A stretch of DNA of 8,439 nucleotides, from contig JALOPK010000133.1 of the NCBI GenBank assembly GCA_025453925.1, positions 1-8,439 of the forward strand. Reading direction: 5' to 3'. The stretch's first letter is position 1; each line of letters opens with the position of its first letter. The notes under the pieces are model-generated. The model saw only the letters and a list, made by a program, of their open reading frames with translations, ran no database searches and was not told the DNA's origin. The position numbers and the translations under genes were made by a program. Positions 4,041-8,110 of this stretch are shown here, one piece after another. Source of the stretch: Candidatus Eiseniibacteriota bacterium (lineage in GTDB: Bacteria; JAFGKV01).

Positions 4041-4532
4041 ATGACTGTTCCATTTCCGCTGGCTGCGGCGGTGGTCGTGATCATCGCGTGGTTGGTGATT
4101 CGCGCCCGTGGCGTGCGCACGGAACACCAGACACGGCGTTCGGGAATCCACCGGGAGTCACCCACGGTCCTGCGTCCGGCCGAAGTCCCTTGCGTACCGG
4201 CAGCGGCAGAAGATCACTTGAAGGATCTCCTCTCGCGCCGGAAGAAGATCGCCGCCATCAAACTGGTTCGCGAGGCCACCGGGTGGGGGCTGAAGCATGC
4301 CAAGGCGTACGTCGAATGGCGGATGGATCCGCGGCGTCCGATGCCCGACATCGCGCCTTCTCACGCTCCCGCGCAGGCAGCCCCCGAGGACCTCGATGCC
4401 GAGGTCCGGCGCCTCGTGTCGGCCGGGTGCCGCCTCGACGCCGTGAGGCATGTGGTGGATCGCACAGGCTGGCCTCTCAAGAAAGCGGTGGGCTATGTGA
4501 CAGACCTGGACCATCCCGATGAATCCCATTGA
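4041..4532 (+). CDS. Membrane-anchored protein with two L7/L12 C-terminal-domain-like repeats
   Basis: The product has 163 residues starting at ATG 4041, after GGAGAGG at 4029-4035. A single hydrophobic segment at about residues 5-21 (LAAAVVVIIAWLVI) is followed by basic residues, consistent with an N-terminal anchor with the rest in the cytoplasm. Residues about 59-93 contain KIAAIKLVREATGWGLKHA, closely resembling the helix-turn-helix of the ribosomal stalk protein L7/L12 C-terminal domain, which contacts translation factors. Residues about 118-155 repeat the pattern (LDAVRHVVDRTGWPLKKAVG). The two copies share T-G-W, then L-K, then A and Y-V at equal spacing. The linker between them is Pro/Ala-rich. 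The protein lacks the L7/L12 N-terminal dimerisation domain and is not the ribosomal protein. It is probably a stalk-like adaptor tethered to the membrane, partner unknown. It may be the last gene of the plus-strand cluster. Confidence 0.85.
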   Translation: MTVPFPLAAAVVVIIAWLVIRARGVRTEHQTRRSGIHRESPTVLRPAEVPCVPAAAEDHLKDLLSRRKKIAAIKLVREATGWGLKHAKAYVEWRMDPRRPMPDIAPSHAPAQAAPEDLDAEVRRLVSAGCRLDAVRHVVDRTGWPLKKAVGYVTDLDHPDESH

Positions 4533-4597: not shown

Positions 4598-4637
4598 ATG
4601 CAGGTGACTATTCTAACATTAGAATAGTCACCTGCAT
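4598..4637. repeat. 40-nt palindrome with 19-bp perfect arms and a 2-nt centre
   Basis: The left arm, ATGCAGGTGACTATTCTAA (4598-4616), is exactly complementary to 4619-4637, with CA between. The inner 24 bases are AT-rich against a GC-rich surrounding. The heptamer TGACTAT occurs at 4593-4599 and 4605-4611 (12 bp apart), and inverted at 4624-4630. No T-tract follows on the plus strand, so a standard intrinsic terminator is not supported. Its position 66 bp after the L7/L12-like stop fits a U-less terminator, an operator, or a mobile palindromic element. Confidence 0.9.
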
Positions 4638-4863
4638 GCTCCACTCCCCGCGAGCCGCCGGCCCACGCCGCGGCGAATGGCCAGGGCGGATCTCCCGCAG
4701 CCGAATCCAGAGGGTGTTCCGCGGAGGTGGCCTTCCGGGCGGACGGAGGCGGCGAAGGTGGGGGATCGAGAGTGGTCATCCTTCACCCAGCAGATCGCTG
4801 GGGGGCTTGACCTGCCTGAGTCAACCGGTTTCTTGAGGTTCCTCCGGGAGCTGGCACACCATC

Positions 4864-4869
4864 GGGAGG
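4864..4869 (+). promoter_or_regulatory. Ribosome-binding site of the PLD-like gene
   Basis: GGGAGG lies 7 nt before ATG 4877. This supports the longer N-terminus over ATG 5057, which has no ribosome-binding site. Confidence 0.7.
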
Positions 4870-4876
4870 CATCAAG

Positions 4877-7800
4877 ATGGCCGCAGGCGAGACGGAGATG
4901 ACTTTCGCATCACAGGATGCACGTTCTGAGGGGGCGTCGGGACCCCCGTCAACCCGCTTCCCTGGACGAAGCTCGCCGCAGCACGAGGTGGCATTCCCGG
5001 GACGCATCGCTCCGGTTCTCCCTTCGCAACCAACCGTCTGCAACTTCCTCCTGCGCATGGCCTCGCGCCCGGGGCGCGCCGCGGGCATTGCGCCGCGCTC
5101 TTGGTCTCGTGCACTGGCCCTTGTGATCCCCTTCCAGGTCGCTGTTTCGCCGTCGTGGGCTGACCCTGCGCTCTCCGGGGGCGGCGCATTCCCGTCGCCG
5201 CCCCTTTCTCTCGGTCAGCCGCCGAGAGTGACCGTCGGCTGGGGGCCGAGCGCGGGGTACTCACTCAGTCGTGAAACCCTGGAGGGACGACTCACCGTCA
5301 CCGTCTCCGGCGAAGCGCTTCTTCCTCACTTCGGCATCGCCCAGCTCTCCGTGGAGGGCGAGGTGATCGGCAGGGAGTCGCCATTGGACTACGCCGTGGC
5401 GACGTACGCGAAGCTCCCCTGGATCAGGGCGGGGGTCGAGTACCGGCTCGACACCCGGGCGTTTACTCCGGCATTCTCAATTTCGATCGTGCCACGGCGG
5501 GGCGGGCTTCTCGGTCAGGGGGACGTCCTTCGAATCGACTACCGTTCCCGTGACCGCACCGTCCTGGCGGGGATCTCCTTCAGCCGGCTGTTCGCCACGT
5601 ACCGGCGCGGCCGGCCGGCCGACGAGTATGCGAAGGTGCCACGCGGCGGCGTCCCTTCTGCGCCCCGTGGCGGCCGGTCTCCGCTCCTGAGCCCCCAGAT
5701 CGAGTTTTGTGTCAGGCGCATCGAGGATTCGATGGAGCGACTGGACGGGTTCCTGACGCCGCACTTCACACCGGGGGACGACTTCGCGAAGAACGCGGCA
5801 CAGTACCGGGCCCAGATCCGGGACGAGGGTCGCTCATTCGCGGGGGAAGATGCGACATATCACGCGGAGATGGTCAACGCCTTCACCCTTGCCGCCGAAG
5901 GCGACGGAGAACTCGGGCGGGCTATGGCTGACCGGGCCGAGTGTCTCCTCCTCAATCATGTTGTTCTTCCGTTCAACCGGCTCTTCGGGCAGAACAAGCG
6001 ACCACATCGAGTAGGAGGATATCTTCGCGTTGCCCTGCGGGAGTTCGACGCCTATCTGGACAGCGTGGCGTCAAGCCCCGGCACCTGCGCGAGAAACAGC
6101 GGCCCCGCCGGGGCGCGGGAGGTGTTCCGGCGCGTCCTCGCGCAGGTCGACGAGGTCGCGCTGCATGGACGGTCGCGGTGGCTCCAGCGACATCTGTTCT
6201 GGCTCCACCAGTCCCGTTTGGTCTGGCTGCCGCTGAACTACGGCCTCCGCCCGGAGCAGTACGACACCCAGGAGGAGTGGAACGGGATCCTCGAGTCGGT
6301 TTCCGGAATCCGATTCACGAATGCCAACCGCATCGTCTACCTGGTCAACGAGCAGTTCCATCCTGAACTGAAGCGGATGATCAGAGAAACGGAATCGTAT
6401 CACGTGCTGTGGTTGCACGATCTCCGCGGGCGCCACGGCAAGGGTGAGACCGATGCCATCGGATGGGATCTGGTGATCGACGGCTACCTTCCGGCTTTCC
6501 TCCAGGCGCTGCACGACGTGGAGGCAGGTCTGCGGACGGGCCTTCCGCAGTTTATGATCTTCCTCGATGAGCTCTACTATCAGGAGAACCGCTCACGGGA
6601 AATCATCACTTTCCTGGAGAACCCCCTCGAGGAAGCCGTTCCCGATCTGAAAGACGGGGAGATCCGGCGGTGCGTCACATCGATGCAGCGGGCTCTTGCG
6701 TCGGCCGCTGCGCACTCCCCCGCGCTCGCCTCGCTGACGCCCCGGGAGATCCGAGATCTTTTCCGGGTTCACGTGAGCGTGACCAACCAGTATGATCCCG
6801 CCTTCGGCGCCGACGCGACCATGCGTGATCATCGTAAGATCGCCTTTTGCGACGTCAGCGAGGACGATCCGGGTTCCGGTGAGGGGATCTTCACGGGCAA
6901 GGGCGTCGGAGAGCACTATGAAGGGGGGGAGTGGGAAGATCGGAGCGTGCTCGTCCAAGGTCCCGCCTTGCTGACCGTCAAACATGCTGCCGGGAGAATG
7001 CTCCGCGGGCAGGGTGTGCGGGCATGCGACCTCCCTCTTTGCCTTCGCGAACGCCCGGTGCCTGCGGACTACGAACGGCTTTGCCGGAGTCTTCGGCAAC
7101 AGGGTTGGCGCAGTTCGGTCTCCCTGGCGATGAACGACACCGGGCACGGCCTGAAGCAATGCACCGCTCTCAAGGCGGCCATCTACAACCTCGCTGTTCC
7201 GGGCGGCACGCTTCTGTCCTTCGATTCGCTGTGGATCAGCGAGTACTGGGCCAGTATGCTCATCGGCGCCGCGCTCAGAGGAGTCCGCGTCTACACCGTG
7301 ACGCCGGCGCCCGGGCACGCGCCCAGCAGTGCCGTGCCGACCATGATCCTCCTGCGGGAGACCCAGGATCTCTTCTTCCGGGCCAGGGAGTTCTTCGCCG
7401 ATGAAATCGCCGGGCGTGGCGGAGCCCTCCACACGGGTTTCTACACTCTCGACGCTCCGGTCACGTCCTTCGAGGCGCGGGTGGATGCCCTTCGGGAGGG
7501 ACTGCGGCGCAATCCGCACGTGCCGCACGGGCCAGCCGGGCAGGATGCTATCCTGACCGGCCTCGACACCGTGGTGAGAGCGGTCCGCCGGGCAACCGGA
7601 TCCGGACCCTGCCCTGGCATTCCGCGGGCCCACCTTCCGTATCTGCACCTCAAGGCGCAGTACTACGCGTCTGTGCCGATCGACGATTTGCTTTCCTCCC
7701 GTGGGTGGTCATGGGCCGTCCGCCAGCACTGGACGATCCGTCACGCGCAACTCGCTGGCTGTCCGGCCCCGGCCCTCGTTCCTGATGGGCTCTTGCTGGA

Positions 7801-8110
7801 CGAGCCGGGCGACGACGGGCGCACGCGCGAGGAGGTCGGCGCCGAGGGATCCGCCGTCGCAGGCGCGGCCCACATCCAGTCCTGGCTGATCGGGTCACAG
7901 AATCAGGATCGGCGATCGATGATGCTGGACGGCGAGGTCATGGTGGCCGTTTCAGGGTTAGACAGCGCGGTCGCTCTGCCGGACTTTGTCTTCCTTCTGG
8001 CAACCGCGGTCTGGCCCGGGAATCGAGCTGCCTTCGCCGAGGTGTTCCCCGAGATCGAAGGGCCGGGGTTCCTCAAGCGGGCGGTCCGATACCTCAAAGA
8101 TCAGATTTGA
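4877..8110 (+). CDS. Large exported phospholipase-D-superfamily (HKD) protein with beta-rich N-terminal region
   Basis: The product has 1077 residues. A polar lead (1-60) precedes a basic stretch and a hydrophobic core at about 79-92, with a plausible signal-peptidase site after A95 (SWA-DP). Residues about 116-245 are alternating beta strands (PRVTVGWG, RAGVEYRL, VLAGISFS) that resemble outer-membrane or beta-barrel sequence. A Gly/Pro/Arg-rich linker and a helical region (about 276-450) follow. The C-terminal part is a two-lobed PLD fold. Lobe 1 has HRKIAFCD (H652, K654, D659) and the later W-x-D...GP pattern (W686, D688). Lobe 2 has HLKAQYYA (H924, K926, Ala at 931 where Asp is usual) and GSQNQDRRS (1006-1014) with E1020. 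PLD-family enzymes cleave or transfer phosphodiester head groups through a phosphohistidine. The substrate could be phospholipid, nucleic acid or another phosphodiester. An envelope or extracellular site is inferred from the signal peptide. The gene is intact over 3.2 kb. Confidence 0.88.
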   Translation: MAAGETEMTFASQDARSEGASGPPSTRFPGRSSPQHEVAFPGRIAPVLPSQPTVCNFLLRMASRPGRAAGIAPRSWSRALALVIPFQVAVSPSWADPALSGGGAFPSPPLSLGQPPRVTVGWGPSAGYSLSRETLEGRLTVTVSGEALLPHFGIAQLSVEGEVIGRESPLDYAVATYAKLPWIRAGVEYRLDTRAFTPAFSISIVPRRGGLLGQGDVLRIDYRSRDRTVLAGISFSRLFATYRRGRPADEYAKVPRGGVPSAPRGGRSPLLSPQIEFCVRRIEDSMERLDGFLTPHFTPGDDFAKNAAQYRAQIRDEGRSFAGEDATYHAEMVNAFTLAAEGDGELGRAMADRAECLLLNHVVLPFNRLFGQNKRPHRVGGYLRVALREFDAYLDSVASSPGTCARNSGPAGAREVFRRVLAQVDEVALHGRSRWLQRHLFWLHQSRLVWLPLNYGLRPEQYDTQEEWNGILESVSGIRFTNANRIVYLVNEQFHPELKRMIRETESYHVLWLHDLRGRHGKGETDAIGWDLVIDGYLPAFLQALHDVEAGLRTGLPQFMIFLDELYYQENRSREIITFLENPLEEAVPDLKDGEIRRCVTSMQRALASAAAHSPALASLTPREIRDLFRVHVSVTNQYDPAFGADATMRDHRKIAFCDVSEDDPGSGEGIFTGKGVGEHYEGGEWEDRSVLVQGPALLTVKHAAGRMLRGQGVRACDLPLCLRERPVPADYERLCRSLRQQGWRSSVSLAMNDTGHGLKQCTALKAAIYNLAVPGGTLLSFDSLWISEYWASMLIGAALRGVRVYTVTPAPGHAPSSAVPTMILLRETQDLFFRAREFFADEIAGRGGALHTGFYTLDAPVTSFEARVDALREGLRRNPHVPHGPAGQDAILTGLDTVVRAVRRATGSGPCPGIPRAHLPYLHLKAQYYASVPIDDLLSSRGWSWAVRQHWTIRHAQLAGCPAPALVPDGLLLDEPGDDGRTREEVGAEGSAVAGAAHIQSWLIGSQNQDRRSMMLDGEVMVAVSGLDSAVALPDFVFLLATAVWPGNRAAFAEVFPEIEGPGFLKRAVRYLKDQI

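Follow-up and report, generated by a model that had tools for sequence, protein, structure and literature searches.

The gene at positions 4877–8110 of the window, the whole 8,439-bp contig analysed here (from a 3.9-Mb draft genome that is 82% complete), encodes a large, probably exported protein that can be placed firmly in the phospholipase D (PLD) superfamily on sequence profiles and predicted fold. While the PLD kind is known, the family architecture, in which β-rich and helical N-terminal regions precede two PLD lobes with an incomplete second HKD motif, appears to be undescribed. The protein is akin to Cls-like enzymes and, on balance, probably carries out phosphatidyl transfer or hydrolysis on envelope phospholipids. 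Its features are listed in Table 1.

Table 1. Features of the PLD-like gene and its product (positions are those of the window).
Feature	Position	Strand	Evidence
In-frame 5' extension, residues 1–60, probably untranslated	4877..5056	+	Unmatched in homologues; GC flat
Probable CDS of PLD-like protein, M61 to stop, 1,017 aa	5057..8110	+	Homologue starts, codon-position GC
Signal-peptide-like N terminus, M61–A95, ...AVSPSWA-D, no lipobox Cys	5057..5161	+	Sequence, homologue N termini
Gly-rich β-strand region, residues 116–245, candidate small outer-membrane barrel or sandwich	5222..5611	+	Hydrophobicity alternation
α-Helical region, about residues 250–480	5624..6316	+	Helical periodicity
PLD lobe 1, about residues 477–725	6305..7051	+	hhalign probability 96.5, P 8.8e-10; fold search
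Motif 1, H652-R-K654-x4-D659	6830..6853	+	Invariant in 28/28
TGKGVG, residues 673–678, equivalent of GGxNIG	6893..6910	+	Gly invariant at Asn position
PLD lobe 2, about residues 746–1040, two insertions	7112..7996	+	hhalign segments at profile 711–789 and 945–983
Motif 2, H924-L-K926	7646..7654	+	His, Lys invariant
Insertion between HxK and GSxN, 79 residues	7655..7891	+	73–82 residues in all members
GSQNQDRRSMMLDGE, residues 1006–1020	7892..7936	+	G, S, N, R, D, E invariant

The forward-strand ORF of 1,077 codons is present as described and, as homologue searches and alignment show, is kept across two phyla. The original prediction envisaged a secreted protein of 1,077 residues; the ORF is real and the N terminus signal-peptide-like, but the first 60 residues are probably untranslated. 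Homologue N termini align at M61 (5057), where a signal peptide is followed by an SLGQP-like motif, and residues 1–60 have no counterpart in any aligned homologue. Codon-position GC is 0.70/0.50/0.78 over 5057–8107 compared with a flat 0.67/0.62/0.67 over 4877–5056. Because homologues begin at M61 and codon-position GC is flat upstream of it, translation probably starts there instead of at M1, although a GGGAGG located 7 nt 5' of the ATG at 4877 leaves some plausibility to the longer start. Complete homologues have comparable N-terminal signal sequences; read by eye, neither the window protein around its cleavage site nor the aligned homologues at the same point have a lipobox Cys. The protein is thus probably exported.

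Profile–profile comparison (hhalign) between the family and 14 PLD-family ORFs returned a probability of 95.2 (P 2.8e-8, score 77.3, 330 columns), compared with a maximum score of 22.7 for reversed and column-shuffled decoys. Against nine mostly Cls-like ORFs, several from Gemmatimonadota, the probability was 96.5 (P 8.8e-10, score 89.9; decoy maximum 19.8). The main match spans lobe 1 and the start of lobe 2, a separate and weaker match (P 2.5e-4) falls at GSxNxDxRSxxxDGE, and the HxK of motif 2 sits in the unaligned stretch between the two; the β-rich and helical N-terminal parts found no PLD match in this comparison. The family HMM also directly matched PLDs of 400–510 aa over lobe 1 (E about 2e-4 to 4e-4). 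An AlphaFold model of residues 446–1077, built template-free from four alignment rows, has a mean pLDDT of 51, with values mostly of 50–75 in lobe 1 and below 50 beyond about residue 930, in lobe 2. A fold search with the lobe-1 model retrieved almost only PLD-superfamily structures (best Z 8.2), among them PssA, Streptomyces PLD, NucT, Zucchini, PLD3/4, FAM83B, TrmB and PPK1, and VIA-align showed that these matches cover model residues 22–280. Z values of 6–8 are moderate taken alone; the PLD assignment, which agrees with the original prediction, is firm because the list of fold matches is uniform and the sequence evidence is independent of it. A p53-fusion match (phmmer, E 1.8) was attributed to chance.

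The fold search also bears on the substrate. Lobe 1 matches NucT, Zucchini and PLD3/4 at Z values similar to those of phospholipases and, as secreted nucleases occur in the superfamily, the protein could be an exported nuclease of the PLD type, comparable to Nuc, NucT or PLD3/4, that breaks down nucleic acid in the periplasm or outside the cell. Such a role is, however, unlikely. In comparisons whose profiles were those of PLD-family and Cls-like proteins, 290–330 columns resembled cardiolipin-synthase-like proteins, including a WxDxx(V/L)xxxGPA block, and the linkage to DUF900 hydrolase lipoproteins described below suggests lipids.

Two HxK motifs, one per lobe, are found in all 28 aligned members, and the predicted motif residues (H652/K654/D659, TGKGVGE from 673, H924/K926, A931 and G1006–N1009) were all confirmed. 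Every row retains H, K, D and G-x-G-(I/V)-G in lobe 1, and H, K, GSxN, R and D-x-E in lobe 2; GSQNQDRRSMMLDGE contains G1006-S-x-N1009-x-D-x-R-S and aligns with the GSxNxDxRS...xE of cardiolipin synthases. The asymmetry of the HKD pair, originally noted in the one protein, extends to the whole family. Asp occurs in motif 1 of all 28 members and in motif 2 of none, the equivalent position (Ala931 in the window protein) being Ala in 22, Ile in three and Gly, Met or Leu in one each; the classical arrangement, with Asp in both motifs, is therefore not found. Classical HKD enzymes also carry a GG/GS motif about six residues past each HKD (PMC8004604), which neither lobe reproduces: the distance from D659 to TG is 13 residues across the family, seven more than the usual six, and in lobe 2 the distance from K926 to GSxN is 73–82. 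The original estimate of about 80 residues between HxK and GSxN was accurate (79 between K926 and G1006 in the window protein, 73–82 in 28 of 28 rows), but not the 15–20 residues given as usual, as the ordinary PLDs compared have HxKx4Dx6GS, a canonical spacing of 11. Since the lobe-2 insert measures 73–82 residues everywhere, it is an old family trait and not a local accident. TGKGVGE does stand in place of GG/GSxN in lobe 1, with Gly invariant at the Asn position, but ordinary Cls-like PLDs of Gemmatimonadota, including the closest ones, have GGxG or GGxC there (TGGIGIG, GGFCVG). Loss of the lobe-1 Asn is therefore not family-defining and was rejected as a hallmark. At the level of sequence the hallmarks are the 13-residue D-to-TG spacing, a lobe-2 HxK without Asp, the 73–82-residue insert, and the β-rich and helical regions.

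The absence of the lobe-2 Asp from all members, the absence of the lobe-1 Asn and a 79-residue insertion that could cover the site are compatible with a PLD scaffold of reduced or no catalytic activity, which would bind phospholipid or phosphate but not turn it over. We consider this quite unlikely. All 28 members, the deeply diverged ones at 26–32% identity among them, retain both His and both Lys, which is unexpected for dead sites, and ordinary relatives likewise lack the lobe-1 Asn. Tdp1 is active with HKN motifs that lack both Asp residues, illustrating that HxK plus Asn can be catalytic; it is a precedent at the level of the motif, and no sequence relation to it was found. In the putative cardiolipin synthase ClsD of Acinetobacter baumannii, Tyr replaces the lobe-2 Asp (PMC12846801). 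Activity without this Asp is possible in the window family, as its lobe-2 His, Lys and Asn are invariant.

The two N-terminal regions were also recognised in the original prediction, and sequence periodicity supports both. Over residues 116–245, of which glycine makes up 16%, the mean β moment was 0.91 compared with 0.635 ± 0.068 in column shuffles, about 4 sd above, an amphipathic-strand signal that makes this region a candidate for a small barrel. The long helical region is supported by helical periodicity, using the same measure. A structure model of the whole mature protein from four rows (mean pLDDT 35.8) yielded no confident fold for the β region. Matches to apolipoprotein structures in the PDB (best E 3e-4) were rejected as reflecting helix composition; they lie entirely within the helical region and have no motif in common with the protein.

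The family comprises about 30 known homologues, nearly all from Gemmatimonadota, a soil phylum, and complete members are about 1,000–1,050 residues long and align end to end. It is present in 30 of 298 sampled Gemmatimonadota genomes (about 10%), several of which (six listed) carry two or three copies, some fragmentary; a further 200 genomes of the phylum that were searched mostly overlap with this sample. Two Fermentibacterota genomes also carry the family. When its profile was run over 386 genomes, most of them representing distinct genera and families, only two already-known genomes were positive. None of the approximately 383 other genomes sampled outside the Gemmatimonadota and Fermentibacterota carriers contained the gene, which is also absent from a genome congeneric with the window's. 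Profile searches had been put forward as the means to define an uncharacterised PLD subfamily and its range, and their outcome supports such a subfamily. The window protein found no match in Pfam or NCBIfam even at E = 1, and Pfam PLDc_2 (PF13091), which misses it, weakly matched five of the 28 members (best E 0.0029). PADLOC defence models did not match the family, viral contigs contained no relative of the protein, and no paper describing the family was found in the open-access literature. The family is thus unnamed in the three model libraries searched.

A direct search identified two copies: the nearest relative of the window protein, 60% identical, in a Candidatus Fermentibacteria genome that shares its family with the window's genome, and another, 41% identical, in one Gemmatimonadota genome. 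The reading frame of the former is broken by a frameshift in lobe 1 (near 1383–1384 of its locus), which points to gene decay or to a fault in the assembly. In the tree these two copies and the window protein form a single clade with support of 100/100, and the Gemmatimonadota genome encodes a second, distant family copy besides. This cross-phylum clade, together with the second copy in the same genome, suggests that the gene moved between phyla, in either direction.

At six Gemmatimonadota loci a gene for a lipoprotein-like DUF900 α/β hydrolase lies directly upstream of the family gene on the same strand, at gaps of −4, −4, −4, 2, 8 and 155 nt. The six hydrolases are 39–55% identical to each other, and the two that were scanned matched PF05990 (E 8e-17 and 8e-18); DUF900 has received little description in the literature searched. 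At four other loci a small protein is encoded directly downstream, with an overlap of 4 nt in three, and the one example scanned weakly matched OMP_b-brl (E 0.0019). These links are specific to two clades, within each of which the family proteins are 53–79% identical. The PLD gene in the window has neither a DUF900 hydrolase nor an OMP_b-brl-like neighbour; the upstream genes encode a methyltransferase, a TPR protein and an L7/L12-like protein. A secreted phospholipase released to acquire nutrients or to attack neighbouring cells would fit the signal peptide without a lipobox and the DUF900 partner at some loci, but is very unlikely given that the amphipathic β pattern near the N terminus and the outer-membrane barrel genes next to some homologues argue for a protein that stays in the outer membrane, and that neither PADLOC defence models nor a Pfam toxin-delivery domain were matched.

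Several other features of these loci were recorded. The L7/L12-like protein (4041–4532, forward strand, 163 aa) appears to carry a membrane segment at its N terminus and matches part of the ribosomal L7/L12 C-terminal domain (PF00542, E 8.7e-7; NF005269, E 6.7e-12, in two stretches). The gap between its gene and the PLD gene contains, at 4598–4637, a perfect 19-nt inverted repeat with a 2-nt loop, ATGCAGGTGACTATTCTAA CA TTAGAATAGTCACCTGCAT, which is AT-rich in GC-rich surroundings; it was considered as a possible mobile repeat but occurs as a single copy in the genome. At one homologue locus a 477-aa strand-rich protein without a Pfam match is encoded just upstream on the reverse strand (4652–6086 as oriented), and resembles, as an impression only, a BamA-type outer-membrane barrel. 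The window's genome encodes two further PLDc_2 proteins, at least one of them exported-looking, and a polyphosphate kinase; this 82%-complete assembly showed no ordinary membrane-bound cardiolipin synthase.

Since the PLD superfamily also includes nucleases and kinases, a lipid substrate can only be inferred. Export, the strand-rich N terminus and the lipase-like partners point to envelope phospholipids, and the reading we favour remains an exported, Cls-like phosphatidyl transferase or hydrolase. In the superfamily one His forms a phosphohistidine while the other activates the acceptor (PMC8004604). Following this precedent, the two HxK motifs would meet in one bilobal active site, where H652 would attack the phosphodiester to form the phosphohistidine, and H924 would protonate the leaving group and activate the acceptor. 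With water as acceptor this would be a phospholipase D reaction, whereas the glycerol hydroxyl of another lipid would give transphosphatidylation, as in cardiolipin synthesis. The enzyme may act in the periplasm or at the outer membrane, with the N-terminal β region as a putative anchor and, in some Gemmatimonadota, jointly with the lipase-like DUF900 lipoprotein encoded just upstream. A more specific proposal, which we advance tentatively and regard as rather doubtful, is that a PLD lipid transferase and a small β-barrel of the outer membrane are joined in this one protein, which would act on the phospholipids of that membrane in Gemmatimonadota through a composite site that combines the lobe-1 Asp with the lobe-2 Asn. 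It would then be a barrel-anchored counterpart, of separate origin, of ClsO, the surface-exposed outer-membrane cardiolipin synthase of A. baumannii, which serves as an analogy for PLD-family lipid synthesis at this membrane (PMC12846801).

The family architecture is constant through a sizeable part of a phylum in which the lipids of the outer membrane have received little attention, yet is covered by none of Pfam, NCBIfam and PADLOC. With respect to known enzymes, lobe 1 shares its fold with PssA (3hsi, Z 8.1, 150 residues at 3.3 Å) and Streptomyces PLD (Z 6.4–7.1, about 160–184 residues at 3.9–4.9 Å), although both lack the N-terminal β and helical regions and neither is detectable as a phmmer sequence match. 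The resemblance to ClsA/B/C-type PLDs (PLDc_2, PF13091) is closer, as these have two lobes and two HxK motifs in the same order, a W-x-D block and then G-P-A past motif 1, A-x-R-G-V-x-V before motif 2, and GSxNxDxRS-x-E after it. In contrast to Cls-type PLDs, the members of the window family are about twice as long, have a signal peptide and β-rich and helical N-terminal regions, place 13 instead of six residues between D659 and TG, lack the Asp of motif 2 and contain the 73–82-residue insert; the window protein itself falls below Pfam detection. It shares with ClsO membership of the PLD superfamily, export and a proposed action on envelope phospholipids, but ClsO has two HKD motifs and is a lipoprotein, while the window protein has no lipobox, a β-rich region and an incomplete second HKD. 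It is thus neither a ClsO nor a classical two-HKD enzyme. If phosphatidyl transfer in the outer envelope is indeed its role, the ClsO precedent would gain a companion from another phylum that is anchored in a different way, and it would become apparent which elements of the HKD signature an active PLD can do without.
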